A stretch of DNA of 64,000 nt, from NCBI GenBank assembly GCA_016841205.1, contig JAENZP010000009.1:99554-163553 (forward strand). The letters are read 5' to 3'. Under the pieces are notes generated by a model. The model made no database searches and was not told the origin of the DNA. It worked only from the letters and a program-made list of their open reading frames with translations. Position 1 is the stretch's first letter; each line of letters begins with the position of its first letter. The position numbers were made by a program, and so were the translations under genes. Below are positions 43,437 to 56,250 of the stretch, one piece after another. The stretch comes from Desulfoscipio geothermicus (lineage in GTDB: Bacteria > Bacillota > Desulfotomaculia > Desulfotomaculales > Desulfallaceae).

Positions 43437-43469
43437 CTTATGATAAAACATCAAAAGAGGGTGATGAGC

Positions 43470-45125
43470 ATGGTAACGGATGATATGCCCTATAGGAAAA
43501 AAGAGCTACAGGAATATTTGCTTACTACACATATGCTTTGCCTTCTGATCGTAATATCTTCACTGGTTCTCAGTAATAAATTTTTCATATCAGCTCAGAT
43601 ATACCCTGTTATCAATGTGCGCTTTTTTATTGTAGCCGGGCTGGTTGCGCTGTGTTTTGTTATACTTTTCAAAACCAATAATAATTCTTTATTAGAAGAT
43701 ATCCATACTATGTCATTTGCCAAGGCAACTTATTTATCTTTTCCCCTGTTGATAACGATGGTTACCCTGCTGGCCGTAAATAACAGCCTTGATGATATCG
43801 AGACCATTTTGCTGCTGCCCGTTCTGGTAGCCGCTTCCATGACCGGTAATACAGGCGGGTTGATTATGTCTACCCTGTGTGCTTTTGGGCTGGTTTTTTA
43901 TAGCACCCATATAAACAGTTTAAATATTTATCAAGCCATGGAAGAAAATCTGCTTTTTATTGGTATGCTGTATGTAATGGGCTGGCTTGTGGGTGGGCTG
44001 ACCAACTTGGAGGCGAACCATCGCAAGCATTTAGTCCATAGCCTGCAATCTCTGACGGAAGAAATCGCCGTCCGGGAGAAAGCCGAAGAACAGCTTAGAG
44101 TAATATCCAGCGCTGTGGAGCAAAGCCCGGTGATGGTGGTTATAGCAGGAACCGACGGCAGGATACAATATGTCAATAACAGTTTTACCCGCATTACCGG
44201 CTATTCGCCGGTAGATGTTGATGGTAAAGAGATTGTAGAATTTTTAGGTGATCGGAACGGAAATTTGGAACAGTTATCAGGGATTCTTAAATCCGGTGGA
44301 AGATGGCAGGGGGAAATAACCGGTCTTAAAAAAAGTGGGGAATATTACTACGAAAATGCTTCCCTTTCTTTCGTGAGGGACTCGGAGGGCCGGATCACAC
44401 ATGTATTAAAAATTGCTGAGGATATAACCGAGAAAAAACAAATGGAAATTGAAATGGCCAAACTGGACCGTCTGAACCTGGTGGGTGAGATGGCTGCAGG
44501 CATAGGGCATGAAATAAGGAATCCCATGACCACGGTGCGTGGTTTTTTACAACTACTGAGCGGTAAAGAGGATTGCCGGAAGTATAATGAATATTATGAT
44601 TTGATGATCCAGGAATTGGACCGGGCTAATTCAATAATTACGGAATTTCTTTCTATGGCCAAAGATAGGCCGGTTAATTATAAAATGCAAAACCTTACAA
44701 AAATTGTAGAGGTCATGGCTCCGCTGATAAATGCTGACGCCATAAATTCAGACAATGTCATTAAACTTGACTTGCAGGAGGTGCCTGACCTGCTGCTTGA
44801 TGAAAAGGAAATCCGGCAGTTACTGTTGAATTTGGCCCGCAATGGGCTGGATTCCATGAAATCAAAAGGAAGTTTGACTATACGAACATTTATGAATAGT
44901 GATGCAGAGATAGTTTTATCAGTAAAAGATCAAGGATGCGGTATTGCTCCGGAGACTCTCGATAAAATTGGCACCCCCTTTTTTACCACCAAGGAAGAAG
45001 GAACGGGCCTTGGTCTGGCAGTTTGTTTCAGTGTTGCCGAACGACATAACGCGACCATAAAAATAGATACCGGTAGTGGAGGCACTACTTTTTTTGTTAT
45101 TTTTAGACAGTCATCTTTTATATAA
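43470..45125 (+). CDS. Membrane histidine kinase with PAS domain (sporulation-kinase-like)
   Basis: 551 residues. Six or so N-terminal membrane helices (about 20-190) are followed by a PAS domain (about 215-335), HisKA dimerisation with the phospho-accepting histidine in GIGHEIRNPMTTVRG, and a HATPase domain (N box NLARNGLDSMK, G1 DQGCGIAPETLD, G2 GTGLGLAVCF). This NtrB/Kin-type core differs from AgrC, whose H-box is distinct, but the position after agrBD suggests it is the peptide receptor. No response regulator is adjacent. Start 43470 is favoured by AGAGGGTG; ATG 43464 and 43440 are alternatives. Confidence 0.86.
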   Translation: MVTDDMPYRKKELQEYLLTTHMLCLLIVISSLVLSNKFFISAQIYPVINVRFFIVAGLVALCFVILFKTNNNSLLEDIHTMSFAKATYLSFPLLITMVTLLAVNNSLDDIETILLLPVLVAASMTGNTGGLIMSTLCAFGLVFYSTHINSLNIYQAMEENLLFIGMLYVMGWLVGGLTNLEANHRKHLVHSLQSLTEEIAVREKAEEQLRVISSAVEQSPVMVVIAGTDGRIQYVNNSFTRITGYSPVDVDGKEIVEFLGDRNGNLEQLSGILKSGGRWQGEITGLKKSGEYYYENASLSFVRDSEGRITHVLKIAEDITEKKQMEIEMAKLDRLNLVGEMAAGIGHEIRNPMTTVRGFLQLLSGKEDCRKYNEYYDLMIQELDRANSIITEFLSMAKDRPVNYKMQNLTKIVEVMAPLINADAINSDNVIKLDLQEVPDLLLDEKEIRQLLLNLARNGLDSMKSKGSLTIRTFMNSDAEIVLSVKDQGCGIAPETLDKIGTPFFTTKEEGTGLGLAVCFSVAERHNATIKIDTGSGGTTFFVIFRQSSFI

Positions 45126-45598: not shown

Positions 45599-45628
45599 TT
45601 GCTAGACATAAAAATATTAAATTATAAA
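45599..45628 (+). promoter_or_regulatory. Possible SigA promoter of the selenoprotein operon
   Basis: TTGCTA (45599-45604) and TATAAA (45623-45628), 18-base spacer, about 85 bases before the first gene. No operator was recognised. Confidence 0.5.
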
Positions 45629-45714
45629 CATAAAGGATTTACATATTTCAACAAAGAAAATACTTAGAGTTATAAAGTCGAATCATAAAAATTTTTGAAA
45701 GGGGGTCTCATGTT

Positions 45715-46884
45715 TTGCGTCCCGAAACAATGAGAATTGTCGATGACCTGCGTGATCAAAATATACTTAACCTGGAGCATGCCAAAAGAGATAACCAGAA
45801 AATTGTGGGTATGTATTGTGCCTATTCTCCCAAGGAGCTTATCATGGCCGCCGGGGCCCTGCCGGTAGGTCTGTGCGGGACCAGGCAGGAGCCCATTGCA
45901 GCGGCGGAAAAGATACTGCCTCGCAATATCTGTCCGCTAATTAAATCCAGCTTTGGCTTTGCCATTACAGACACCTGTCCCTATTTTCGCCTTTCTGACT
46001 TTGTGATTGCGGAAACCACTTGTGACGGTAAAAAAAAGATGTTCGAAATGCTCAGTGCCTATAAGCCTTTGCATGTGCTGCATCTGCCCCAGGGAAGCAA
46101 CCGGCCGGGGGCCTTAAAATGGTGGGTTGATGAGCTATATTTGCTTAAGGATAAGCTGGAAGAAAATCTAGATATAAAGATCAGCAGGGAGAGCTTAAGA
46201 GAGGCCATTAAACTGGTTAATAAAGAGAGGCTGGCGATGCGGAAGCTGCATGAACTAAATAAAGTGAACCCTGCCCCGCTTAGCGGCATGGATATGCTGA
46301 CCTCCCTCTGGATGAAGGGCTTTAATGTTGACGTTGAGGAAGGTATCGAGCTGATCAACCAGCTGGCCATGGAAGTTGAGGATATCGTACGGCAGGGATC
46401 GTCCCCCTTTGTGGTGGGTACCCCGCGGATCCTGTTGACTGGCTGCCCGGTAGGCCTGGGTTCAGAAAAGGTATTGAGGCTTTTGGAAGAGTGCGGCGGT
46501 AGCGTGGTTTGCCTGGAAAACTGCAGCGGCTTTAAAACAGTAGATACACTGGTGGATGAAGATGAAGCAAGGGACCCAATTGAGGCCATTGCTGAAAAAT
46601 ATTTGCAAATCCCCTGCTCCTGCATGTCGCCCAATGAGGGAAGGTTTGATCTAATCGGCAGGATGATCGATGAATATAATGTCGACGGTGTTGTCGATCT
46701 CACTTGGCAAGCCTGCCATACCTACAACGTGGAGGGAGAAATGCTTAACCGGTATGTTAAGGATAAATGGGATTTGCCATATCTTCATTTGGAAACGGAC
46801 TATTCCACTTCCGACCTGCAGCAGTTGCAAACCCGAATTGGAGCCTTTATTGAACTGCTCAAAAGGAGAAAAGCATTGCCATGA
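45715..46884 (+). CDS. Double-cubane-cluster anaerobic reductase (2-hydroxyacyl-CoA dehydratase D-component family)
   Basis: 389 residues, a single-polypeptide HgdB/YjiM-like protein. Conserved cysteines fit the family: GLCGTRQEP near residue 62, ICPLIKSSFG near 82, DTCPYF near 94, TTCDGKKKMFE near 107, then TGCPVGLGSEK and CLENCSGFK in the second half. Such proteins carry a double-cubane [8Fe-9S] cluster and perform low-potential ATP-driven reductions of small molecules. The start is TTG 45715 behind GGGGG. It overlaps its activase by 4 bases and heads the selenoprotein operon; substrate unknown. Confidence 0.85.
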   Translation: MRPETMRIVDDLRDQNILNLEHAKRDNQKIVGMYCAYSPKELIMAAGALPVGLCGTRQEPIAAAEKILPRNICPLIKSSFGFAITDTCPYFRLSDFVIAETTCDGKKKMFEMLSAYKPLHVLHLPQGSNRPGALKWWVDELYLLKDKLEENLDIKISRESLREAIKLVNKERLAMRKLHELNKVNPAPLSGMDMLTSLWMKGFNVDVEEGIELINQLAMEVEDIVRQGSSPFVVGTPRILLTGCPVGLGSEKVLRLLEECGGSVVCLENCSGFKTVDTLVDEDEARDPIEAIAEKYLQIPCSCMSPNEGRFDLIGRMIDEYNVDGVVDLTWQACHTYNVEGEMLNRYVKDKWDLPYLHLETDYSTSDLQQLQTRIGAFIELLKRRKALP

Positions 46885-47648
46885 TTACAGTGGGCATTGA
46901 TGTGGGTTCTATGACCACCAAGGCAGTGCTGCTGAACGGCCAAATATGGCGCAGTGTGATCAGGCCAACCGGATGCAGCCCCCGGCAGTCCGCCCGGGAT
47001 GCTTTTGATGAGCTTTTACAAGGGACCGGACTCAGAGCCGGAGAGATTAGCCACATTACTGGAACAGGCTATGGCCGTATAGCGCTGGACTTCATTAATG
47101 ATGCCGTGACTGAAATAACCTGCCATGCCAGGGGTGCTCATTATTTAGTGGAAGGGACGGACCTGGTTATTGATATCGGTGGGCAGGATAGCAAGGTTAT
47201 TAAGACTGACGGGCAGGGTAATGTGATTGATTTTGCCATGAATGATAAGTGTGCTGCAGGAACCGGGCGGTTCCTACAGGTAATGGCGTCCGCACTTGGT
47301 GCCGATGTTAGTGAACTGTCTGAATTGTCCCGTGGTGCTGAGCCGGTGGAAATCAGCAATATGTGCACTGTCTTTGCTGAGTCCGAGGTAGTTAGCCTGC
47401 TGGCCCAGGGAGTCGCCAAAGAGAGTATCATTGCAGGCATACATCGCTCGGTGGCCCGTCGGGTGGTTGCTATGACCGGCAGACTGGGCAATGGCAGCAA
47501 GATTACCTTTACCGGTGGGGTGGCCAGAAATGCTGGGGTTAAGGAGTGGTTGGCCGCGGAACTGGGAGCGGAAATTAATGTTGTGCCGGCGTCCCAACTG
47601 GCCGGGGCGCTTGGGGCAGCCCTGCTGGCAAGAGAGACGTCTAAATGA
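46881..47648 (+). CDS. ATP-dependent activase of the double-cubane enzyme (HgdC/YjiL-like)
   Basis: 255 residues, ASKHA fold. TVGIDVGSMTTKAVLL is the phosphate-1 motif, DIGGQDSKVIK phosphate-2, and TFTGGVARN the adenosine motif. Two cysteines that hold the bridging [4Fe-4S] in the homodimer are present in NDKCAAGTGRF and SNMCTVFAESEV. It injects a high-energy electron into the upstream reductase using ATP. ATG 46881 overlaps the preceding stop (ATGA), and the next gene starts 36 bases after its stop. Confidence 0.92.
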   Translation: MITVGIDVGSMTTKAVLLNGQIWRSVIRPTGCSPRQSARDAFDELLQGTGLRAGEISHITGTGYGRIALDFINDAVTEITCHARGAHYLVEGTDLVIDIGGQDSKVIKTDGQGNVIDFAMNDKCAAGTGRFLQVMASALGADVSELSELSRGAEPVEISNMCTVFAESEVVSLLAQGVAKESIIAGIHRSVARRVVAMTGRLGNGSKITFTGGVARNAGVKEWLAAELGAEINVVPASQLAGALGAALLARETSK

Positions 47649-47684
47649 AAGAGGGAGAAACCGTGAGTTAATGGAGGTGCTGCA

Positions 47685-47948
47685 GTGTCTATGGTTAAGG
47701 TGGAGTTTATCAATACTTGACCCGGTTGTGAGGAACATGCTCGGATGATAAAAAATGCTGCCACAAAGTACGGGGATGCCGTGGCAGTTAAAATTTATTA
47801 CGCGGGTAAAGATATGGATTATCTTAAAAAATACGGCATGATAACCAAAGGTACCATGATTGTCAACGGCAGAAAAAAATATGACGTTCTCTCCAGACTC
47901 GTCATTGAAAAAGTTATTGAGGAAGCGGTTAGGGGTAATGGACTGTGA
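47685..47948 (+). CDS. saoT: Thioredoxin-like selenoprotein with U-P-G-C active site (TGA at 47718 read as Sec)
   Basis: 87 residues with TGA (47718-47720) read as selenocysteine. The frame VKVEFINT-U-PGCEEHARMI is a thioredoxin-fold opening: beta strand, then UxxC redox motif, then helix; the remainder (VKIYYAGKDMDYLKKYGMIT, TMIVNGRKKY) is a typical small thioredoxin-like/arsenical-redoxin sheet. Without readthrough the remaining frame (from 47745) lacks the redox motif. GTG 47685 sits 6 bases after GGAGGT; ATG 47691 is an alternative. Overlaps the next gene by 4 bases. The sao symbol follows what I recall of the SAO naming. Confidence 0.88.
47722..47744 (+). promoter_or_regulatory. bSECIS-like hairpin for saoT
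   Basis: Immediately after the TGA: CCGG (47722-47725) pairs with TCGG (47741-47744), one U/C mismatch, then TGTG (47727-47730) with CATG (47736-47739), loop AGGAA with G residues. The stem-loop, about 10 bases past the UGA, is compatible with SelB recruitment though a little close. Confidence 0.65.
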
Positions 47949-49030
47949 TTTTGGAAATAGTGAACAGGATAATTTACGTCTCCATTGATATACTTAATGG
48001 TGCTTCGGTGTGGCTGGTAGCCAGCTTTATTCTGGCCGGTTTGCTGCACAATGTTTTAAGCCCGGAGAAGCTGCAGCGGATGCTGGGTAATACAAATATT
48101 TCATCCATTATTAAGGCTATCTTGTCAGGTATGCTGCTGCCTATGTGCAGCTGCGGGGTAATCCCCCTTGGTCTGGGTCTGTATTATTCCGGCGCCTGTC
48201 TTGGTCCGGCTCTGGCCTTTATGACTGCAACTCCCATCATCAACCCTGCCGCCGTACTGCTGGCCTTCGGTTTTCTGGGACCTCAGATTGCTGCCATTTA
48301 TCTGGTATCCGGGTTTGTGGTGCCGCTGTTCATTGGTATCGTTGGCAACAAACTGGCAGGATCGGAGCTGTATGCTCCCGGTATGGAAAAAGGACTTGAT
48401 TTGGTGGAGCTTGAGTCCGGGGGAAAGGACAGCTTGACACAAAAGCTGCGCGCCGGTTTGGAGTGGGGCTTTATGGATATGGGCGTTTCGGTTAGTAAAT
48501 ATGTCTGCCTGGGCATGCTGCTGGCCGGTTCGATCATAGCGCTGGTTCCCCCAAACTTTATCCAGCAGTATCTGGGTAATCCCGGCCTGCTTTCACTAAC
48601 CGGCATTGCAGTGCTCGGCGCTATTATGTATGTATGTGCCGTAGGACACATACCCTTTATTGCTGCCCTGGTGGCCAGCGGGGCAGCTCCGGGCCTGGCC
48701 ATAACATTTTTACTGACCGGGACGGCTACCAATCTTCCGGAATTAATCAGTATGTATAAATTGATTGGGAGACGGGCGGTGGCTATTTATGCGCTGGTTT
48801 TAATCAGTGCTTCTTTTCTCATTGGTTACCTGACCAATATGCTACTGACTGATTTTGTCCCTTTGTTTAACATATTCGAAACCAAAGACACTGTGAGCAT
48901 GGCTAACAAGTTTATTTTTTCTGCACCGGAATCTTTGAAGTACCTGTGTTCTGTTATTGTTGCAGGGCTGGGAATTTATTCATTTTGGCCGGGCATTAAG
49001 CGTTACCTGGTTAAGGAAAGGACTGCATAA
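47945..49030 (+). CDS. saoE: Efflux permease, DUF318/ArsP-like (SaoE)
   Basis: 361 residues, about ten membrane helices in two related halves. The first half has MLLPMCSCGVIPLGLGLYYS with a Cys-Ser-Cys-Gly motif, also seen in ArsP/YraQ-type permeases, and TATPIINPAAVLLAFGFLG; the second has AVLGAIMYVCAVGHIPFIAAL. Such permeases export organoarsenicals (ArsP) or other thiophilic compounds. GTG start 47945 overlaps the preceding gene (GTGA). In the operon it most simply exports the product of the lyase/reductase chemistry. Confidence 0.82.
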   Translation: MILEIVNRIIYVSIDILNGASVWLVASFILAGLLHNVLSPEKLQRMLGNTNISSIIKAILSGMLLPMCSCGVIPLGLGLYYSGACLGPALAFMTATPIINPAAVLLAFGFLGPQIAAIYLVSGFVVPLFIGIVGNKLAGSELYAPGMEKGLDLVELESGGKDSLTQKLRAGLEWGFMDMGVSVSKYVCLGMLLAGSIIALVPPNFIQQYLGNPGLLSLTGIAVLGAIMYVCAVGHIPFIAALVASGAAPGLAITFLLTGTATNLPELISMYKLIGRRAVAIYALVLISASFLIGYLTNMLLTDFVPLFNIFETKDTVSMANKFIFSAPESLKYLCSVIVAGLGIYSFWPGIKRYLVKERTA

Positions 49031-49503
49031 TGTTCAGCTATAACAAACTGCAGGTCATACTTACATATTTAATGATCATCCTGGTTTGCAGCTGTTGTGA
49101 TAATACGCCGGTGGAAAAAAGTACGGCTGTTGATCGGATAATGCAGAGCGATTCTTTGCTGCAATACTTTATATCCACTCATCCGGCCAAAGAGGTAATC
49201 AAATTCGCCCGGGCTGATGTAAATGACAGTGGTACGGAGGATATGGTGGTGATATATAGAGCAGGACAAGATAAAAACATGATGGAAGTGGTTTTTGATG
49301 TGGCAGGGAAATTACATTGTTCCAACGAAGTTCCGGCCCCGGCCACCAACCAGCTGATCCAATTCAAGGATATCGATAAAAGACCGCCGCTGGAGTTCAT
49401 CGTCCAGGGTATGAAGGACGCCAAGGTAGGTTACGCCATTTACCGGTTGGAGGAAGGCAGGCTGGTTGACCTGTTTGGGGAAGGCATGGAAGATTGCTGT
49501 TGA
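49030..49503 (+). CDS. saoC: Small protein ending in Cys-Cys (Cys-Cys-COOH protein SaoC)
   Basis: 157 residues with an N-terminal hydrophobic segment (lipid-anchor-like, CSCCDNTP near residue 20), then a compact domain (ARADVNDSGTEDMVVIYRAG resembles an FG-GAP/VCBS-type repeat) and a C-terminal EGMEDCC followed by TGA. The terminal vicinal cysteine pair is unusual and would bind soft metals. TGA here is the genuine stop: the reading beyond it (LCKREGDYL then TGA) is short and has no family match. It overlaps saoE by one base (TAATG). Confidence 0.8.
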   Translation: MFSYNKLQVILTYLMIILVCSCCDNTPVEKSTAVDRIMQSDSLLQYFISTHPAKEVIKFARADVNDSGTEDMVVIYRAGQDKNMMEVVFDVAGKLHCSNEVPAPATNQLIQFKDIDKRPPLEFIVQGMKDAKVGYAIYRLEEGRLVDLFGEGMEDCC

Positions 49504-49529
49504 TTATGCAAACGAGAGGGAGATTACTT

Positions 49530-50660
49530 ATGAAAAAATTAAAAAATGTGCTGCTATTCATTGGAACTATACTGGTGTTTTCGCTGCTGGCAGGATGCAG
49601 CGGGGGGGAGAAACCGGTTAGTGAAAACAAGGCGGCTGATGAAGGTATACCGGCAAAAGATAAAGATTATGTAGTGCAATTGGGCTATTACAATTGCGAT
49701 CACATGACAGGAGCCTGTATTGCCAAGGATGCCGGTATATTTGATGAACTTGGACTCAAGGTTAACGTTACCGGCAACGGTAAGGTTCCACAGGCAATGG
49801 CGGCAGGCCAAATGGATGTGGGTTATATAGGCACGGAAGGGCTGATGAGAGCCTTTTTAGCAGGGTCTCCCATTATGGTGGCAGCCAATAATCACCTCGG
49901 GGGCTCATATTATCTGGTAGCGTCCAATAATATTCAAGATGCCAAGCAGCTTGTTGGTAAAAAAGTGGCCTGGGGTTCCAATCCAGAGAAAACCCAGTCC
50001 AACTGGGTACAGATGGCGGAAGATTTAGGCATTCCGGTTGAAGGAGCAAAATACCAGAACTTTGATATGGCGGACAAGGACGAGTACATGACTATGAAGA
50101 CAGGTAAGCTGGATGCCTATCTCTGCTGTGATCCCTGGGGATCGATGGCCGAGTACGAAAAAACAGGGCATATATTGGCTACCTGGCTTAAGCTGCCAAA
50201 TGACGGGTGGGGATCCTGCTGTGTATACTCCATGAGCCAGGATTTTGCGAAAGAGCACTCTGAGTTAGCCCAAAAGATGATATTGGCCCACACTAAAGCC
50301 ATTGAGCATATCTATACCAAACCTGTTCGCTCCGCGGAGATTTTTGCGGAGAACTACAGCGTGCCCATGGAAGTGGCTCTGATGACTATTTATAAAAAAA
50401 CTGTGGGCGAAGGTAGGACGCTGACCTGGAAAGTTGATCTCCAAAACTTTATTGATGAAATTGAATTTGAGAAAAGCAAGGGTACCCTGGAGTCCGCTCC
50501 CGATGTAAATCAATTTATTCAGACTAAACTTCTTGATGAGTGCGGCGCGGACGACTTTGACACATTTATCAATGAAAAGGTTGACCCGGTATTTCCGCAG
50601 GGTATGGCTTACGAGCAGTGGAAGGCCAAAGCTTGTGAGCTTGAAGGTATAAAGGCTTAA
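49530..50660 (+). CDS. ABC-transporter substrate-binding lipoprotein, SsuA/NMT1-like, cysteine-rich
   Basis: 376 residues. Lipobox LLAGCSGG near residue 24, then an SsuA/TauA/NMT1-type type-2 binding fold: YYNCDHMTGACIAKDAGIFD, VTGNGKVPQAMAAGQMDVGYIG, VAWGSNPEKTQSN. It is rich in vicinal cysteines in expected ligand-cleft regions (DAYLCCDPWGS, GWGSCCVYSM) and has NCDH near the N-terminus, suggesting a thiol-bound ligand such as a soft metal complex. ATG 49530 behind GAGGGAG. It presumably delivers its ligand to the downstream permease/ATPase; a second binding protein follows. Confidence 0.85.
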   Translation: MKKLKNVLLFIGTILVFSLLAGCSGGEKPVSENKAADEGIPAKDKDYVVQLGYYNCDHMTGACIAKDAGIFDELGLKVNVTGNGKVPQAMAAGQMDVGYIGTEGLMRAFLAGSPIMVAANNHLGGSYYLVASNNIQDAKQLVGKKVAWGSNPEKTQSNWVQMAEDLGIPVEGAKYQNFDMADKDEYMTMKTGKLDAYLCCDPWGSMAEYEKTGHILATWLKLPNDGWGSCCVYSMSQDFAKEHSELAQKMILAHTKAIEHIYTKPVRSAEIFAENYSVPMEVALMTIYKKTVGEGRTLTWKVDLQNFIDEIEFEKSKGTLESAPDVNQFIQTKLLDECGADDFDTFINEKVDPVFPQGMAYEQWKAKACELEGIKA

Positions 50661-50669
50661 TCTGCATGA

Positions 50670-51479
50670 ATGATTAAAAATGCCGTCTTCTTTTTAGTGT
50701 TCATGCTGGTGGTTGTTGTAATCGGTGCTGAATTCATTCCCCTGGACAGAAATACCGGGAAAGTAGTCATCGGTGCTCCGGATGACTCCGGGGGAATGAT
50801 TATACACTACCTGATCAACAAAAAAGGCTTAAAATACGCCGAGGTGCGGAGCACCTTCGATATATATCCTATCAAAGACTGCTGCACCAGCACCTCTCAA
50901 TGGGCGATGAGCACAGACTTGCTTGATCTTGCAGTAATGTGCCCCGATGCGGCTCGGGCACTTTTAGCCAAGGATAGTCGTTTTGAAATTATAGGGCCTT
51001 TTCTGGTTAATTCAGACATTATTGCCCTAACGCCGGGCAAAGACCCTAAAAAAATAGGCATTACCCAAAACCGTTTATACCAGGAACAGATTGTTGTAGA
51101 AAAGTTTGGTCCAGAATGCTCAGCCGTTCAGATGTTGTCGGCAGCTCTGCCATATGCCCTGGAAAAAAACGCTGTTGATGGGGTGGTAGTTGATGTGTTA
51201 AAAGGGCTGGTGCTCAAAGGCGATAAGTTTTCTACAATTGCAGCCGGTGGTAACAGGGCTACGTATGTGCTGGTGGCACGCCAAAGCTTTATGGGCAGCC
51301 CTGCGTTCAAGCGTTTTATTACTCTTTTTAATCAAGCGGCAGGCGAATTGAACCGCCCGGATATTCTTAGGGAGGAAATTAATAGCTACAGTAACATGGA
51401 CATAACCCGGGAGGATGTGAAAAAGTGGAGCCAATTGGGGATAAAGTTCGTATCTATAATTCCGGTAACCAGCGAGTAA
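50670..51479 (+). CDS. saoB: Second substrate-binding protein, (seleno)protein family SaoB, Cys form
   Basis: 269 residues with an N-terminal membrane anchor (about 3-22). The opening VVIGAPDDSGGMIIHYLINK and the segment KDCCTSTSQWAMSTDLLDLA match a type-2 periplasmic-binding fold with a vicinal Cys-Cys at the presumed ligand site. As I recall, relatives can have Cys-Sec there; here both codons are Cys (TGC TGC), so no readthrough is needed. Its stop overlaps the permease start by one base. ATG 50670 has a weak site, consistent with translational coupling. Confidence 0.78.
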   Translation: MIKNAVFFLVFMLVVVVIGAEFIPLDRNTGKVVIGAPDDSGGMIIHYLINKKGLKYAEVRSTFDIYPIKDCCTSTSQWAMSTDLLDLAVMCPDAARALLAKDSRFEIIGPFLVNSDIIALTPGKDPKKIGITQNRLYQEQIVVEKFGPECSAVQMLSAALPYALEKNAVDGVVVDVLKGLVLKGDKFSTIAAGGNRATYVLVARQSFMGSPAFKRFITLFNQAAGELNRPDILREEINSYSNMDITREDVKKWSQLGIKFVSIIPVTSE

Positions 51480-52255
51480 TGCGGGAAATTATCTTGGGGT
51501 CTGCCCAAAGTAAGCAGATATTCTACCGTTTGATCATGGTGCTGGGAGTACTGGTTATATGGCAGCTGGCGGCCAATCATTATAACAGCGACCTGCTGCT
51601 TCCCCCACCGTGGAAAACACTGGTAACCTTTGTGGCAGCTGTGCACGACCCCGAGGTGCTTACCAATCTTTTTATTACCCTGCGCAGAGTGCTGACGGGA
51701 TTTTTGTATGCGCTTTTGATCGGTATACCCCTGGGCTTTTTGATGGGCTATTCAAAGGTGGTGCTGCACATATTGGAGCCCTTAATCGATTCACTCCGCC
51801 AGGTTCCCATTATGGCCTGGGTGCCCCTTACTATTGTCTGGTTCGGTTTGGGTGATGGGCCGACTATATTTCTCATAACTTTTGCCGGTGTTTTCCCCAT
51901 TATATTAAATACTATTGCCGGGGTGCAGAACATTCCTAGGGATTACTACCATGCCGCCCGCAGTATGGGGGCTGGTCCCTGGAGTATTTTTGCCCATGTC
52001 ATCGTTCCAGGCTCAATGCCCGACATTCTTACTGGTGGCAGGATTGCCGTCGGGATGGGGTGGATGTCTGTCATATGAGCGGAATTTATAGCAACGAGTG
52101 CCGGTTTCGGCTACTCTATGGTGGAGGCGGAGACCAGAATGCAGACGGACATGCTGCTTGCCCTCATGATTATGGCTGCACTGGTAGGTTACGGTATCGA
52201 CCGGGTGATTCAAATGTTTAATAGCAAGGTTACTAAATGGAGGTTTGTCCAGTAG
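51479..52255 (+). CDS. saoP: ABC-transporter permease selenoprotein (TGA at 52076 read as Sec)
   Basis: 258 residues if TGA 52076-52078 is Sec (residue 200). Before it: SsuC/TauC-type helices with the EAA loop AARSMGAGPWSIFAHVIVPG and GGRIAVGMGWMSVI. After it: AEFIATSAGFGYSMVEAETR, the normal continuation of this family (usually GWMSVVAAEM). Termination at the TGA would remove the last helix and the conserved A-E. Full length matches the family (about 250-270). ATG 51479 overlaps the saoB stop; GTG 51425 is a less likely start. Its stop overlaps the ATPase start. Confidence 0.88.
52097..52115 (+). promoter_or_regulatory. bSECIS-like hairpin for saoP
   Basis: AGT-GCCG (52097-52103), loop GTTT (52104-52107), CGGC (52108-52111), bulged T (52112), ACT (52113-52115). 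A 7-bp stem with single bulged U and a loop starting G-U, strongly like the E. coli fdhF minihelix. The loop lies 26 bases past the UGA, in the usual range. Confidence 0.8.
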
Positions 52256-53049
52256 TGAATTTAAGCGTTGAAAACTTGAGCAAGGTTTATTTAAATGAGG
52301 GTAATGTCCATACTGTTTTGTCGGGCGTTAGTTTTACCGTTCAGGAAGGTCAGTTTCTCACTTTGCTGGGTCCTTCGGGGTGTGGTAAGACAACTTTGCT
52401 TACAATTCTTGCCGGCTTTCAAGATGCTTCCGGAGGCAGCGTATTGCTTAATGGTAAAAAAGTAATTAAACCGGGGCCTGACAGGGGCTTTGTTTTTCAA
52501 AACTATGCTCTTTTCCCCTGGATGACAGTACAGGATAATATACTTTATCCCATGAAACGCCGCAAAATGCCAAGACAGCAAAGGGAACAGCGTCTGAAAG
52601 AACTGCTGGAAATGGCCCAACTGGAAGGTAAGGAGAGGCTATATCCTCATCAGCTGTCCGGGGGTATGAAACAAAGAACTGCATTTGTCAGGGCATTGGC
52701 CGGCAGCCCTGAGGTCCTGTTAATGGACGAGCCCCTGGGGGCGGTAGATTTCCAAATGAGGCAAATACTGCAGGAAGAACTGGAGTCTCTCTGGCTTAAA
52801 GACAAAACTACGGTGATCATGGTAACCCACGATGTGGATGAGGCTATTTATTTAAGTGACCGGGTAATTGTGATGTCGTCATGGGAAGGCATCATTTTGG
52901 AGGATTTGGAGATAAAACTGGGCCGGCCCCGAAACAGAAATGGAGAAAAATATTTAAGGCATAAAGAAAACCTGATGAATGTATTAAGAAAAGCGCTGGT
53001 TAAGGAATCGGATGCGTCCGGAAAGGAAAGGGAACTTTGTCTGGCTTAA
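52255..53049 (+). CDS. saoA: ABC-transporter ATP-binding protein of the selenoprotein system
   Basis: 264 residues, SsuB/TauB-type. Walker A GPSGCGKTTLLTIL, Q-loop VFQNYALFPW, signature LSGGMKQRTAFVRALA and Walker B VLLMDEPLGAVDF are intact. It energises the upstream selenocysteine-containing permease. GTG 52255, one base into the permease stop and ten bases after GGAGGT, was chosen over the upstream in-frame ATG 52237, which overlaps that site. The MerB-like gene begins two bases after its stop. Confidence 0.92.
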   Translation: MNLSVENLSKVYLNEGNVHTVLSGVSFTVQEGQFLTLLGPSGCGKTTLLTILAGFQDASGGSVLLNGKKVIKPGPDRGFVFQNYALFPWMTVQDNILYPMKRRKMPRQQREQRLKELLEMAQLEGKERLYPHQLSGGMKQRTAFVRALAGSPEVLLMDEPLGAVDFQMRQILQEELESLWLKDKTTVIMVTHDVDEAIYLSDRVIVMSSWEGIILEDLEIKLGRPRNRNGEKYLRHKENLMNVLRKALVKESDASGKERELCLA

Positions 53050-53051
53050 GT

Positions 53052-53720
53052 ATGTATAATTCTAGTGGTGATCACAACAACAGTCGTTTTAAGCATTACT
53101 CTGAAGAGTTGTTGATGATTGCAAGCATATCGTCAAAACTCACCGTAACTGAAAGGTTTTTGAGAAATTTCATATTAGAAAGTATTGTTAACAATGGAGC
53201 GCCTGTAAAGGTGGGTGGTTTGCAGCATGTATTAAATGCACGGCAAAAGGATATCGATGTTATAGTGGAAAACCTGATCGAAAAAAGAACTGTGGTAAAA
53301 GATGATGCGGGAGATATTGTTTTTGCGTACCCCGTATCGGCCCTGCCTACATCTCATCGGGTGACTTTGCGGGATGGGCGGAAACTGTATGCTATGTGCG
53401 CTGTTGATGCGATGGGAGTTTCTTTCACTTTTAAACAAGATATTAAAATTGACTCTGTATGCCGGCATTGCAATACACTGGTTTCCATGACCATAAAAAA
53501 CGGGGAAATAGTTGGGCAGTATCCCGAAACTACCCATGTTATGCATGTAGACCTTAACAAGCTGGATAATTGGGCGGGCGGCTGCTGAAACATTATGAAT
53601 TTCTTCTGTACGAAGAAGCATTATGATGAATGGGTTGACTGCAATGGGGTTAATCGGGACGAGATTTTTTGTTTAGATGCATATGAAGGGCTGTTGGTGG
53701 CCAGGATGCTTTTTAGTTAG
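53052..53720 (+). CDS. saoL: MerB-like organometallic lyase selenoprotein (TGA at 53586 read as Sec)
   Basis: 222 residues with TGA (53586-53588) read as Sec. The MerB-type motif YAMCAVDAMGVSF gives C116 and D119, equivalent to MerB Cys96 and Asp99; C137 matches Cys117 by exact spacing; Sec179 (in NWAGGC-U-NIMNFFC) falls at or beside catalytic Cys159. The post-TGA part (CTKKHYDEWVDCNGV) is the usual MerB C-terminus. An N-terminal winged-helix segment precedes it. Protonolysis of carbon-metal bonds is the expected chemistry. TTG 53037 with AAAGGGA is an alternative start. The 3' end would be lost by naive calling. Confidence 0.9.
53598..53622 (+). promoter_or_regulatory. bSECIS-like hairpin for saoL
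   Basis: TTCTTC (53601-53606), loop TGTAC (53607-53611), GAAGAA (53612-53617), extended by AAT (53598-53600) with ATT (53620-53622) across a GC bulge. The loop starts 18 bases past the UGA and contains a G. Confidence 0.72.
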
Positions 53721-53760
53721 TTAAATTGATTTTAAATAATAATTAAAGGGGTTATAAATA

Positions 53761-54093
53761 ATGAAAGTGGCTTATGTTTTTAGCACCTCAAACTCACAAA
53801 AAATACTAAATACCATGATTATGCCACAGTTGGAAAAGGATACTCATGTGGCTGAAGTTGTGGGTATGTTTTTTTTCATGGATAATACTTTTTTCCTTTT
53901 GAAAGGTACTGAAACGGGAGAGAGGCTGCAGGCCATCCAAGAAAGGACAGGTATGCTGCTCATGGCCTGCGACCAGTGTGCTATGGAACGAAATATAGAA
54001 AATGACCTGGTGTCCGGGGCGGCGATAGGGTGTTTCCCTCAGCTATATGGCAGTTTAGCCGGGGTTGGGGTGGATCAGGTTATAACTTTGTGA
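53761..54093 (+). CDS. saoD: DsrE-like small protein (SaoD)
   Basis: 110 residues, DsrE/F-type Rossmann-like fold: KVAYVFSTSNSQKILNTMIM, VVGMFFFMDNTFFLLKGTET and TGMLLMACDQCAMERNI, the last with a CxxC pair at the position of the sulfur-carrying cysteine of DsrE proteins, plus GAAIGCFPQLY. It may carry sulfur, selenium or a metal-thiolate between proteins. ATG 53761 follows AAAGGGG 40 bases after the lyase end, and the operon ends with a terminator. Confidence 0.85.
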   Translation: MKVAYVFSTSNSQKILNTMIMPQLEKDTHVAEVVGMFFFMDNTFFLLKGTETGERLQAIQERTGMLLMACDQCAMERNIENDLVSGAAIGCFPQLYGSLAGVGVDQVITL

Positions 54094-54183
54094 AGAATAG
54101 CTTTATCGAAGCGGCTGCAGCATCATTTTCCCTTAGTTAATTACATAAAGTGAATGTTGCTGATAAAAGAACGAAACGTTTTA

Positions 54184-54221
54184 AGCTTACCTGGCCGGGA
54201 CGGTTCCAGGCCAGGTAAGCT
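54184..54221. terminator. Bidirectional terminator between saoD and the NrfD gene
   Basis: A perfect 13-bp stem AGCTTACCTGGCC (54184-54196) with GGCCAGGTAAGCT (54209-54221), between convergent genes. Confidence 0.8.
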
Positions 54222-54238: not shown

Positions 54239-55426
54239 TTAATTGCTCAATTCAATGCTTGATGTACTCGTATTTATACTATTATTAAGATTGGGTGCCT
54301 GATCATGCTTATGATTAGGTAGGATGTTGAAATTCTCTACAATAAACAAATAACCGAGTACACCAATGGCTATTAAGCCAATGCTTACTAACCACTCAAT
54401 GGCTGAGGGGAAGTAAGAGCCGCCCATAAAATCTGCCATGCCGGTAAATACAACGTTCATTCGGTTGATAATAACACCAGCCACCACTAGCACCCCAAAG
54501 GTTACCAAACCGCCCACGCTGCTGCGCAGATTGGGGGTGAAACAGATAACAATGGGAATGATTATGCCAAGTACCATTTCTAGCAAAAACATATTGCCTT
54601 CTAGGTTGCCCATGAAGACAAGGCTGGTAGCCCCGCGGTATGAAAGGTCAACTACTTTAAGCACCAGATAAACCAACATTAAATAGCCCGATACTTTAAT
54701 TAAAGACTGCAATACACTAATATCTGGTTTGTGACCGTGGGCTCGGGCCCCTAGCATGGTTTCCACTGTTACCATAGCCGGTCCCACAAAGAAGGAGGAC
54801 ATTAAAAAGAACACCGGTAACATCATGGACCACCATAGAGGGTGTAATTTACCTACTTCGATAACATAAAGTGAACCTAACGAGGACTGGTGCAGTGTAG
54901 GCAACAGAACACCAATAATTAGTAGCGCAGGCAAGGCCTTTTTAAATAATTTATGCCAGCCCTTCTGTACCTTTTCGGTGGCCACCTCGCCAAATTCTAG
55001 CAGCTGAACTAACGTATAAAGTGAAACGCACCAAAATACTTCAAACAAGACACTATGGTAGCCCCACGAAACAAATGGTCGCCAGAAGTTAAACCAGCGG
55101 CCGATATCCATAAACAGTCCGGCCATTACTAGTAAATAACCAATTAAGGAAGTTAACATAGCACTACGGGCTATAGGAGTAAATTTTTTAATGCCCAGGA
55201 CGTGCACCAAAAGCGCCGTGCTGTATCCGCCGCCGGCTAGTGCCACGCCGGTTAGCACATCAAAACCAATCCACATGCCCCAGGGCCATTGATCGTTTAA
55301 ATTAGTAGCACTGCCCAACCCAGACGCCAGTCGGTACACCATGAGCAGTACGCCTACCAGGCTCAGTACCAGCAACACATACCTAGTGGGGGTCATGGTA
55401 AAACGCCATTTATCTTTGTCGGCCAT
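54239..55426 (-). CDS. NrfD/PsrC-type membrane subunit (hydrogenase electron module)
   Basis: 395 residues with nine to ten membrane helices, NrfD/PsrC family (HybB-like). Conserved polar residues in helix 2-3 (WPWGMWIGFDVLTGVALAGGGY) and the middle PLWWSMMLPVFFLMSSFFVGPAMVTVET are visible. It would pass electrons from the ferredoxin-type subunit to menaquinone or couple them to ion movement. Last gene of the minus-strand hydrogenase operon, 38 bases after the ferredoxin subunit; the C-terminal tail is polar and cytoplasmic or external. Confidence 0.9.
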   Translation of the reverse strand: MADKDKWRFTMTPTRYVLLVLSLVGVLLMVYRLASGLGSATNLNDQWPWGMWIGFDVLTGVALAGGGYSTALLVHVLGIKKFTPIARSAMLTSLIGYLLVMAGLFMDIGRWFNFWRPFVSWGYHSVLFEVFWCVSLYTLVQLLEFGEVATEKVQKGWHKLFKKALPALLIIGVLLPTLHQSSLGSLYVIEVGKLHPLWWSMMLPVFFLMSSFFVGPAMVTVETMLGARAHGHKPDISVLQSLIKVSGYLMLVYLVLKVVDLSYRGATSLVFMGNLEGNMFLLEMVLGIIIPIVICFTPNLRSSVGGLVTFGVLVVAGVIINRMNVVFTGMADFMGGSYFPSAIEWLVSIGLIAIGVLGYLFIVENFNILPNHKHDQAPNLNNSINTSTSSIELSN

Positions 55427-55464
55427 TACAAAGCCTCCCTGTAAATTAGTTTTCGCGCCTTAAA

Positions 55465-56250
55465 TTATTCATCACCGGGTTCTTTCTCCTCCCGGGCTAT
55501 TTCATTGCGCCGGTGGTTATAAACATACATACCAGTCAGTAGCGCTCCCCAACCAAGTGCCACGGCCGGTGTCAAACTAAGTATGCTTTCAGTATAATGG
55601 GGCAGCGGCGTGGTGGTGATGTTGGTGCGGAAGCCCAGTGTTTCAAAAGGTACATCCGATATATACAGCCAGCTCGTGCCACCTGCTTCTTTTTCGCCAT
55701 AGATCTGCTTAATGTAGCTACTGTCGCTGTTTATTTTTTCCCTGGCTATAGCGAGCAAGCTATTGCGATCTCCAAAGGTGAGCGCTCCCGCCGGGCATAC
55801 ACTCACACAGGCCGGGCTTTCACCGGTTTGCACGCGTCCCGCACACATCTGGCATTTACGTACCTGAGGAAAGGTCTTATTCCACTCGTATTTAGGAACG
55901 TTAAAGGGGCATGCCAGCATACAGTACCGGCAGCCCACGCACAAATTAACGTCGTAAACCACCGGGCCATCCTTGGTTTTTTTGATGGCTTTGGAGAAAC
56001 AAGCCGAAGCACATGCCGGTTCCTCGCAGTGCAGACATTGGTATTTAACGAATCGCCACACAGGTTCATTATTCTTTTCAGTTTGCACACGATTAACTGC
56101 GGTCCAATTTTCCGCATTTAGGCCACTGCCCTTATCAGGGGCAGTTTGGTTATATTGCAGATTATTCCACATTTTACAGGCTACTGTACAACTGCCACAG
56201 CCGATACACCTTGTGATATCAACCAAAACTCCCTTGGACAAATCATTCAC
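55465..56250 (-). CDS. 4Fe-4S ferredoxin-type electron-transfer subunit (HybA/DmsB-like)
   Basis: 261 residues. Four cysteine clusters are visible: CIGCGSCTVACKMWN, CLHCEEPACASACF, CVGCRYCMLACPF and CQMC...ACVSVCPAGAL, the 16-Cys pattern of HybA/DmsB proteins that hold four [4Fe-4S] clusters. A C-terminal hydrophobic helix (about 225-245) anchors it. There is no Tat signal, so export would be as a passenger with the hydrogenase. It lies between the hydrogenase and the NrfD gene. Confidence 0.9.
   Translation of the reverse strand: MNDLSKGVLVDITRCIGCGSCTVACKMWNNLQYNQTAPDKGSGLNAENWTAVNRVQTEKNNEPVWRFVKYQCLHCEEPACASACFSKAIKKTKDGPVVYDVNLCVGCRYCMLACPFNVPKYEWNKTFPQVRKCQMCAGRVQTGESPACVSVCPAGALTFGDRNSLLAIAREKINSDSSYIKQIYGEKEAGGTSWLYISDVPFETLGFRTNITTTPLPHYTESILSLTPAVALGWGALLTGMYVYNHRRNEIAREEKEPGDE

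Follow-up and report, generated by a model that had tools for sequence, protein, structure and literature searches.

The window analysed here is a stretch of 64,000 nucleotides from the bacterium Desulfoscipio geothermicus (GenBank assembly GCA_016841205.1, contig JAENZP010000009.1, positions 99,554 to 163,553 of the forward strand), and our subject is an operon within it that belongs to the selenocysteine-assisted organometallic (SAO) system. Eleven plus-strand genes occupy positions 45715-54093, the same gene set and coordinates that had been proposed in an earlier reading of this DNA from its letters alone (the sequence-only reading). They encode, in this order, a double-cubane-cluster reductase (DCCP), its activase, SaoT, SaoE, SaoC, SaoX, SaoB, SaoP, SaoA, SaoL and SaoD (Table 1), and they are as tightly packed as had been claimed, with neighbouring genes overlapping by up to 19 bases or separated by up to 40. 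Each of the nine Sao proteins in this one cluster scores above its curated NCBIfam cut-off. The sequence-only reading had named eight of them, all of which are present, and had left unnamed the ninth, SaoX, which is present as well; the double-cubane reductase that it had recognized also lies above its cut-off, with the activase adjoining. The operon is a genuine and complete instance of the SAO system as published and not a new kind of system. The system and the NCBIfam models SaoA to SaoE, SaoL, SaoP, SaoT and SaoX are reportedly to be credited to Haft and Gwadz (J Bacteriol, 2023). A review describes the SAO system as well (PMC13188914).

Table 1. Genes, in-frame TGA codons and terminal hairpin of the SAO operon (positions in the window; ABC, ATP-binding cassette; ORF, open reading frame; U, selenocysteine).
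Feature	Position	Strand	Evidence
DCCP, double-cubane-cluster reductase, TTG start	45715..46884	+	NF040772 512.8 bits (cut-off 350), Pfam HGD-D
ATP-dependent activase of DCCP (BcrAD/BadFG ATPase)	46881..47648	+	TIGR00241 263.8 bits (cut-off 125.4), PF01869
SaoT, thioredoxin-like selenoprotein, U-P-G-C motif	47685..47948	+	NF040730 136.1 bits (cut-off 65)
SaoT in-frame TGA, residue 12	47718-47720	+	
SaoE, ArsP/SO_0444-type efflux permease	47945..49030	+	NF040736 529.3 bits (cut-off 325), PF03773
SaoC, C-terminal Cys-Cys-COOH	49030..49503	+	NF040734 179.2 bits (cut-off 80)
SaoX, substrate-binding protein	49530..50660	+	NF040735 528.3 bits (cut-off 300)
SaoB, second substrate-binding protein, D-C-C motif	50670..51479	+	NF040727 303.7 bits (cut-off 140)
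SaoP, ABC permease selenoprotein	51479..52255	+	NF040733 430.4 bits (cut-off 295), scored on longer ORF from 51425
SaoP in-frame TGA	52076-52078	+	
SaoA, ABC ATPase	52237..53049	+	NF040729 445.3 bits (cut-off 360)
SaoL, MerB-like lyase selenoprotein	53052..53720	+	NF040728 189.2 bits (cut-off 140), PF03243
SaoL in-frame TGA, residue 179	53586-53588	+	
SaoD, DsrE-related protein	53761..54093	+	NF040732 187.1 bits (cut-off 169)
Stable hairpin 3' of last gene	54184..54221	+	fold -29.5 kcal/mol, z -5.3

As a comparison set we used the best 80 of 93 loci around relatives of SaoX, all from named genomes, to which the window was added (81 in all). Two SaoX peptide patterns, one containing Cys56 and the other Cys200, served to find the loci, and a SaoX with selenocysteine (Sec) at both positions would escape them; the other Sao genes were located with purpose-built profiles, after which their codons were read from the DNA. 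Counts of absent genes in these loci include contig ends. At the level of genomes we compared 48 SAO genomes, which are 47 locus genomes and the window's own and come from several phyla, with single draws of sampled Bacillota (398 genomes each for SaoX, SelB and HgcA, and 149 for DCCP). Of the 398 Bacillota sampled for SaoX, 8 have it above the cut-off, and none was found above the cut-off in the sampled genome of the window's own genus. Thus, the distribution of the SAO system is patchy. The closest named locus among the 80 is that of Sporotomaculum syntrophicum (L009), with 48-90% identity depending on the gene. Between it and the window, DCCP is 90%, SaoX 68% and SaoB 48% identical; these values differ widely along the operon, the binding proteins having changed more rapidly than the reductase. 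Four other loci (L012, L030, L054 and L068) have two SaoX genes each within one SAO cluster.

The genes for SaoT, SaoP and SaoL each contain one in-frame TGA, as the sequence-only reading had seen. When the loci and the window are counted together, TGA is retained most often at the SaoL site (40 of 45 rows, with Cys in 5), followed by the SaoP site (46 of 77, with Cys in 31), a fourth site in SaoB (19 of 76 rows, with Cys in 57, and one gap in a 77th) and the SaoT site (15 of 70, with Cys in 55). The SaoB site is the second Cys of the D-C-C motif and is Cys in the window. Pooled over the four variable sites, there are 120 TGA codons, 148 Cys codons and one gap, and no other residue; the sequence-only reading had held that homologues with neither Cys nor Sec at the TGA positions would speak against it, and only TGA and Cys codons occur. 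Moreover, the match of the Pfam MerB domain to SaoL runs through the TGA as far as profile position 125 of 126, and that of BPD_transp_1 to SaoP likewise runs through the TGA, as far as position 183 of 184. Because domain matches cross the TGA codons and the homologous codons are only TGA or Cys, these codons are not the product of chance or error. Use of Sec across the Sao proteins looks ordered, since every one of the 15 loci whose SaoT has Sec, and every one of the 19 whose SaoB has it, also has Sec in SaoP, related loci not being independent. In SaoL, Sec is also retained in 11 loci whose SaoT, SaoB and SaoP are all Cys. Full-length SaoL homologues from the database (P0127, P0133, P0143, P0158 and P0201) show Trp at the TGA site; Trp as the true residue was rejected, since the DNA survey of the 80 loci and the window shows only TGA and Cys, and most likely gene callers translated the TGA as Trp.

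The sequence-only reading had also made its case depend on the Sec machinery, and selA, selB, selD and a selenocysteine tRNA (68.6 bits) are all found in the genome. The genes selA (617 bits) and selB (375.6 bits) adjoin each other, and selD (404 bits, G000:C24:126799-127719) has one in-frame TGA, from which it looks like a selenoprotein gene itself. We scored hairpins resembling selenocysteine insertion sequences (SECIS) at 262 sites outside the window, using shuffles of each site that keep base composition but not dinucleotides. By this score the hairpins that follow TGA are the better ones, with a mean z of -1.03 (n=115) compared with -0.19 where the homologous codon is Cys (n=147) and a Mann-Whitney p of 4e-12 for rows that are not independent. 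In the window, the SECIS test of the TGA sites against 150 random in-frame codons gave no separation. That the three TGA codons are true stops or sequencing errors, and the genes hence broken, would agree with the SaoT and SaoP hairpins of the window being no better than shuffles. Such an explanation is hardly credible, however: TGA recurs at the SaoT, SaoP and SaoL sites in 14, 45 and 39 other loci, which otherwise have only Cys there, the sequence past the TGA matches the MerB and permease families, and the genome has complete Sec machinery.

In MerB, Cys96, Asp99 and Cys159 carry out protonolysis, both Cys residues binding the metal and Asp99 protonating the carbon. An alignment of 45 SaoL sequences with two MerB fragments places Cys116, Asp119, Cys137 and Sec179 of SaoL on Cys96, Asp99, Cys117 and Cys159 of MerB (1s6l). 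Cys116 and Asp119 are kept in 45 of 45 sequences, and residue 179 is encoded by TGA or Cys in the proportions given above. The pairwise alignment with MerB2 (5c17) also places Sec179 on the Cys159 equivalent, in agreement with the multiple alignment. SaoL reaches 75.9 bits with PRK13239 (cut-off 193) and 62.9 bits with NF033555 (cut-off 200). Since it stays below both NCBIfam MerB cut-offs, it is not MerB itself, though it may work like MerB. Of the five Cys-type SaoL rows, L031, L036 and L040 are divergent, and their best genome matches lie below the SaoL cut-off.

Both binding proteins are modelled with type II binding-protein folds, SaoX of the TauA/SsuA type with a mean predicted local distance difference test score of 88.4 and SaoB, for which there is no Pfam match, with a score of 90.9. 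In SaoX, Cys56, Cys200 and Cys231 are invariant in an alignment of 24 sequences; in SaoB, Asp70, Cys71, Cys/Sec72 and Cys91 are invariant in 48. The Sec of SaoP falls within the region matching TauC-type permeases, and the terminal CC of SaoC is found in 75 of 75 sequences. Two thiol-bearing binding proteins per importer would fit a soft-metal cargo. Outside the Sao families, SaoX and SaoP come closest in model and fold to taurine and sulfonate transporters, which would be expected if the operon served ordinary organosulfur uptake, with SaoXPA as importers of the TauA/SsuA type and the Cys and Sec residues protecting or reducing thiols. Such uptake leaves the invariant Cys of both binding proteins and the Cys/Sec of the permease unexplained, and SaoL keeps the MerB catalytic residues; we regard it as quite improbable. 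A metalloid route would draw on SaoE, which matches PF03773 (ArsP_1), and on the several invariant Cys of the binding proteins, which suit trivalent arsenic. Methylated or aromatic arsenic or antimony compounds would be imported or recycled, SaoL would be an oxygen-independent C-As lyase, and SaoE, a member of the ArsP superfamily, would export trivalent metalloids. We consider this unlikely; outside the Sao families, the only named model to match SaoE is that of the SO_0444 family of Cu/Zn efflux proteins, with a score under the cut-off.

DCCP is a real partner of the SAO system. In 35 of 81 loci the contiguous Sao cluster has a DCCP gene no more than 1.5 kb away, always on its own strand; another 12 DCCP genes lie at distances of 1.5-10 kb, and 4 of these share the strand of the cluster. 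At the genome level, DCCP is above its cut-off in 48 of 48 SAO genomes, compared with 53 of 149 sampled Bacillota. To explain the pattern of linkage in the DCCP tree (71 rows), at least 12 switches between the linked and the unlinked state must be placed on well-supported branches. This indicates that DCCP genes have entered or left SAO clusters repeatedly, and for the same reason we rejected the idea of one DCCP clade specific to SAO. The window DCCP falls into a five-row SAO-linked group with Sporotomaculum, Pelotomaculum and a metagenome-assembled genome of the Desulfotomaculaceae. Its best solved relatives are 7yyl and 6eno (E 8e-85 across 376 residues). We know of no natural substrate of DCCP.

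We propose, with a probability of about 0.5, that the complete SAO operon with DCCP and activase takes up an organic compound containing a thiophilic metal or metalloid, cleaves its carbon-metal bond at a Sec-containing MerB-like site and exports the ion. The individual steps are read from the anatomy of the operon. SaoX and SaoB, whose Cys residues are invariant (one SaoB position being Sec in some relatives), would hold a soft metal outside the cell, and SaoP together with SaoA would import the metal compound. SaoT, through its UPGC motif, and SaoD might then transfer the metal or maintain thiols and selenols in their reduced form. In SaoL, Cys116 and Sec179 would bind the metal while Asp119 protonates the carbon, as in MerB, and SaoE would expel the product. 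Low-potential electrons from DCCP, which its ATPase recharges, would keep the metal, the selenols or a product reduced. Organometal handling with carbon-metal cleavage, which the sequence-only reading had also inferred, would fit the conserved MerB catalytic residues, and import followed by selenol-assisted cleavage, with DCCP as the reductant, appears to be the best-supported mechanism.

Its main rival is a role in selenium supply, in which organic selenium would be imported, the Cys and Sec residues would exchange selenium instead of binding metal, SaoL, if present, would cut C-Se bonds, and DCCP would reduce the product for SelD. Of the 48 SAO genomes, 44 have SelB above its cut-off, among them (by hand count) 15 of the 17 genomes whose readable Sao sites are all Cys; the same holds for 8 of 8 SAO-positive sampled Bacillota. 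We clustered the 642 flanking ORFs beside the loci and the window and annotated 3 of 30 listed clusters. Judged from a scan of a single representative per cluster, one is a putative selenium transporter of the YedE type, which occurs in 4 of 80 loci, and another a NifS-type desulfurase, which occurs in 6 of 80. In the literature, Lin et al. (2015; PMC5322559) have DCCP- and activase-like genes adjoining selenium genes, and a figure on methyl-selenium gene clusters in PMC10418091 marks Sao and DCCP genes. SelB is, however, already present in 254 of all 398 sampled Bacillota, a background against which neither 15 of 17 nor 8 of 8 carries much information. MerB chemistry, moreover, is known for C-metal and not for C-Se bonds. 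Overall, we judge selenium supply to be unlikely.

In one locus (L026, 13630-15137), the mercury methylation genes hgcA (404 bits) and hgcB (125.5 bits) lie within the SAO cluster, and L085 has the same arrangement. The two loci are near-identical and represent one actinobacterial lineage, in which hgcA-hgcB stand between the SAO-linked DCCP genes and saoD on the same strand. HgcA is found in 9 of 48 SAO genomes and in 26 of 398 sampled Bacillota. In a more specific version of organometal handling, SAO and DCCP could be pictured as an anaerobic, oxygen-independent counterpart of mer, with import of methylmercury or another methylated soft metal, cleavage by a selenolate that replaces MerB Cys159 and ATP-driven reduction by the double cubane; the hgcAB lineage would then close a loop of methylation and demethylation within a single cell. 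We regard this version as rather unlikely.

Several observations weigh against organometal import and cleavage as proposed above. Among the sampled Bacillota, 0 of the 8 genomes with SAO have HgcA, compared with 26 of 398 overall, which argues against a general link to mercury, and the best hgcA match in the window's own genome reaches 69 bits, below the cut-off of 275. SaoL is above its cut-off in 25 of 48 SAO genomes, has any match in 30 and has no match at all in 18. Thus, cleavage is not obligatory for SAO, and an organometallic lyase cannot be the whole of its core. The HMMER pairwise alignment of SaoL to 1s6l places Cys178, rather than Sec179, on Cys159. An importer for a poison would be odd under plain detoxification. 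With regard to Sec, the link between SAO and its use is weak, since SelB is so widespread among Bacillota, and two of the four SAO genomes without SelB above its cut-off have TGA at a Sao site (L026 in SaoL and L088 in SaoP), perhaps owing to incomplete genomes. Compared by raw energy, the SECIS hairpins of TGA sites are no different from those of Cys sites (one-sided p from 0.07 to 0.98, depending on the gene); a difference emerges only with the shuffle-corrected score. Finally, the SECIS-like hairpins of the window are weak (z of -1.9 for SaoL, -0.4 for SaoP and +1.7 for SaoT); only that of SaoL beats most shuffles, and two of the three TGA codons are without such a hairpin.

Among the flanking genes, a molybdopterin oxidoreductase is found near SAO in 12 of 80 loci, on the operon strand in 11. 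In eight loci (L010, L015, L016, L017, L018, L039, L044 and L068) it lies at most 34 bases from the Sao cluster on the same strand, and it is a possible unnamed partner of SAO. Scans of six of the 13 molybdopterin ORFs showed a resemblance to models of formate dehydrogenase or PhsA, with scores below the cut-off. In the window, a PAS-domain histidine kinase is encoded upstream of the operon (43440-45125), and a relative of it adjoins the SAO locus of S. syntrophicum. On the other side, minus-strand genes at 54239-56250 converge on the SAO operon; their products are membrane and iron-sulfur subunits that resemble HmcC/HybB and HmcB/HybA, with scores below curated cut-offs. As to its boundaries, a promoter scan gave 15 hits compared with 17.1 expected from shuffles. 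The terminator assigned by the sequence-only reading is a very stable hairpin after saoD and a possible transcript end, but it has no T run and is not listed by the intrinsic-terminator scan. The start of SaoP is most likely the ATG at 51479, which overlaps the SaoB stop, rather than the longer ORF start at 51425.

If the proposed organometal function holds, some sulfate reducers, syntrophs and gut clostridia would have a selenium-based organometal pathway, which would bear on the turnover of methylmercury and organoarsenic compounds in sediments and guts. Even with another substrate, the match of Sec179 to Cys159, the retention of Sec and the repeated recruitment of DCCP make the roles of DCCP and SAO jointly testable.

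Compared with known systems, the operon shares with the SAO system all nine Sao proteins, the operon form and Sec in SaoT, SaoP and SaoL, whereas SaoB, SaoC and SaoX of the window use Cys and the operon is headed by DCCP and its activase. Like the TauABC/SsuABC sulfonate importers, it has a SaoX of the same family and fold, a SaoB of the same fold, and SaoP and SaoA of the same families; unlike them, it has two binding proteins, invariant Cys residues and Sec in the permease. The window DCCP resembles the solved DCCP (6eno/7yyl) in its strong match and adjoining activase but sits within a selenoprotein transport operon. Finally, SaoL shares with MerB the domain and the equivalents of Cys96, Asp99 and Cys159, the last of which is Sec in SaoL, and, in contrast to the mer operon, SAO has an ABC transporter with Cys-bearing binding proteins.

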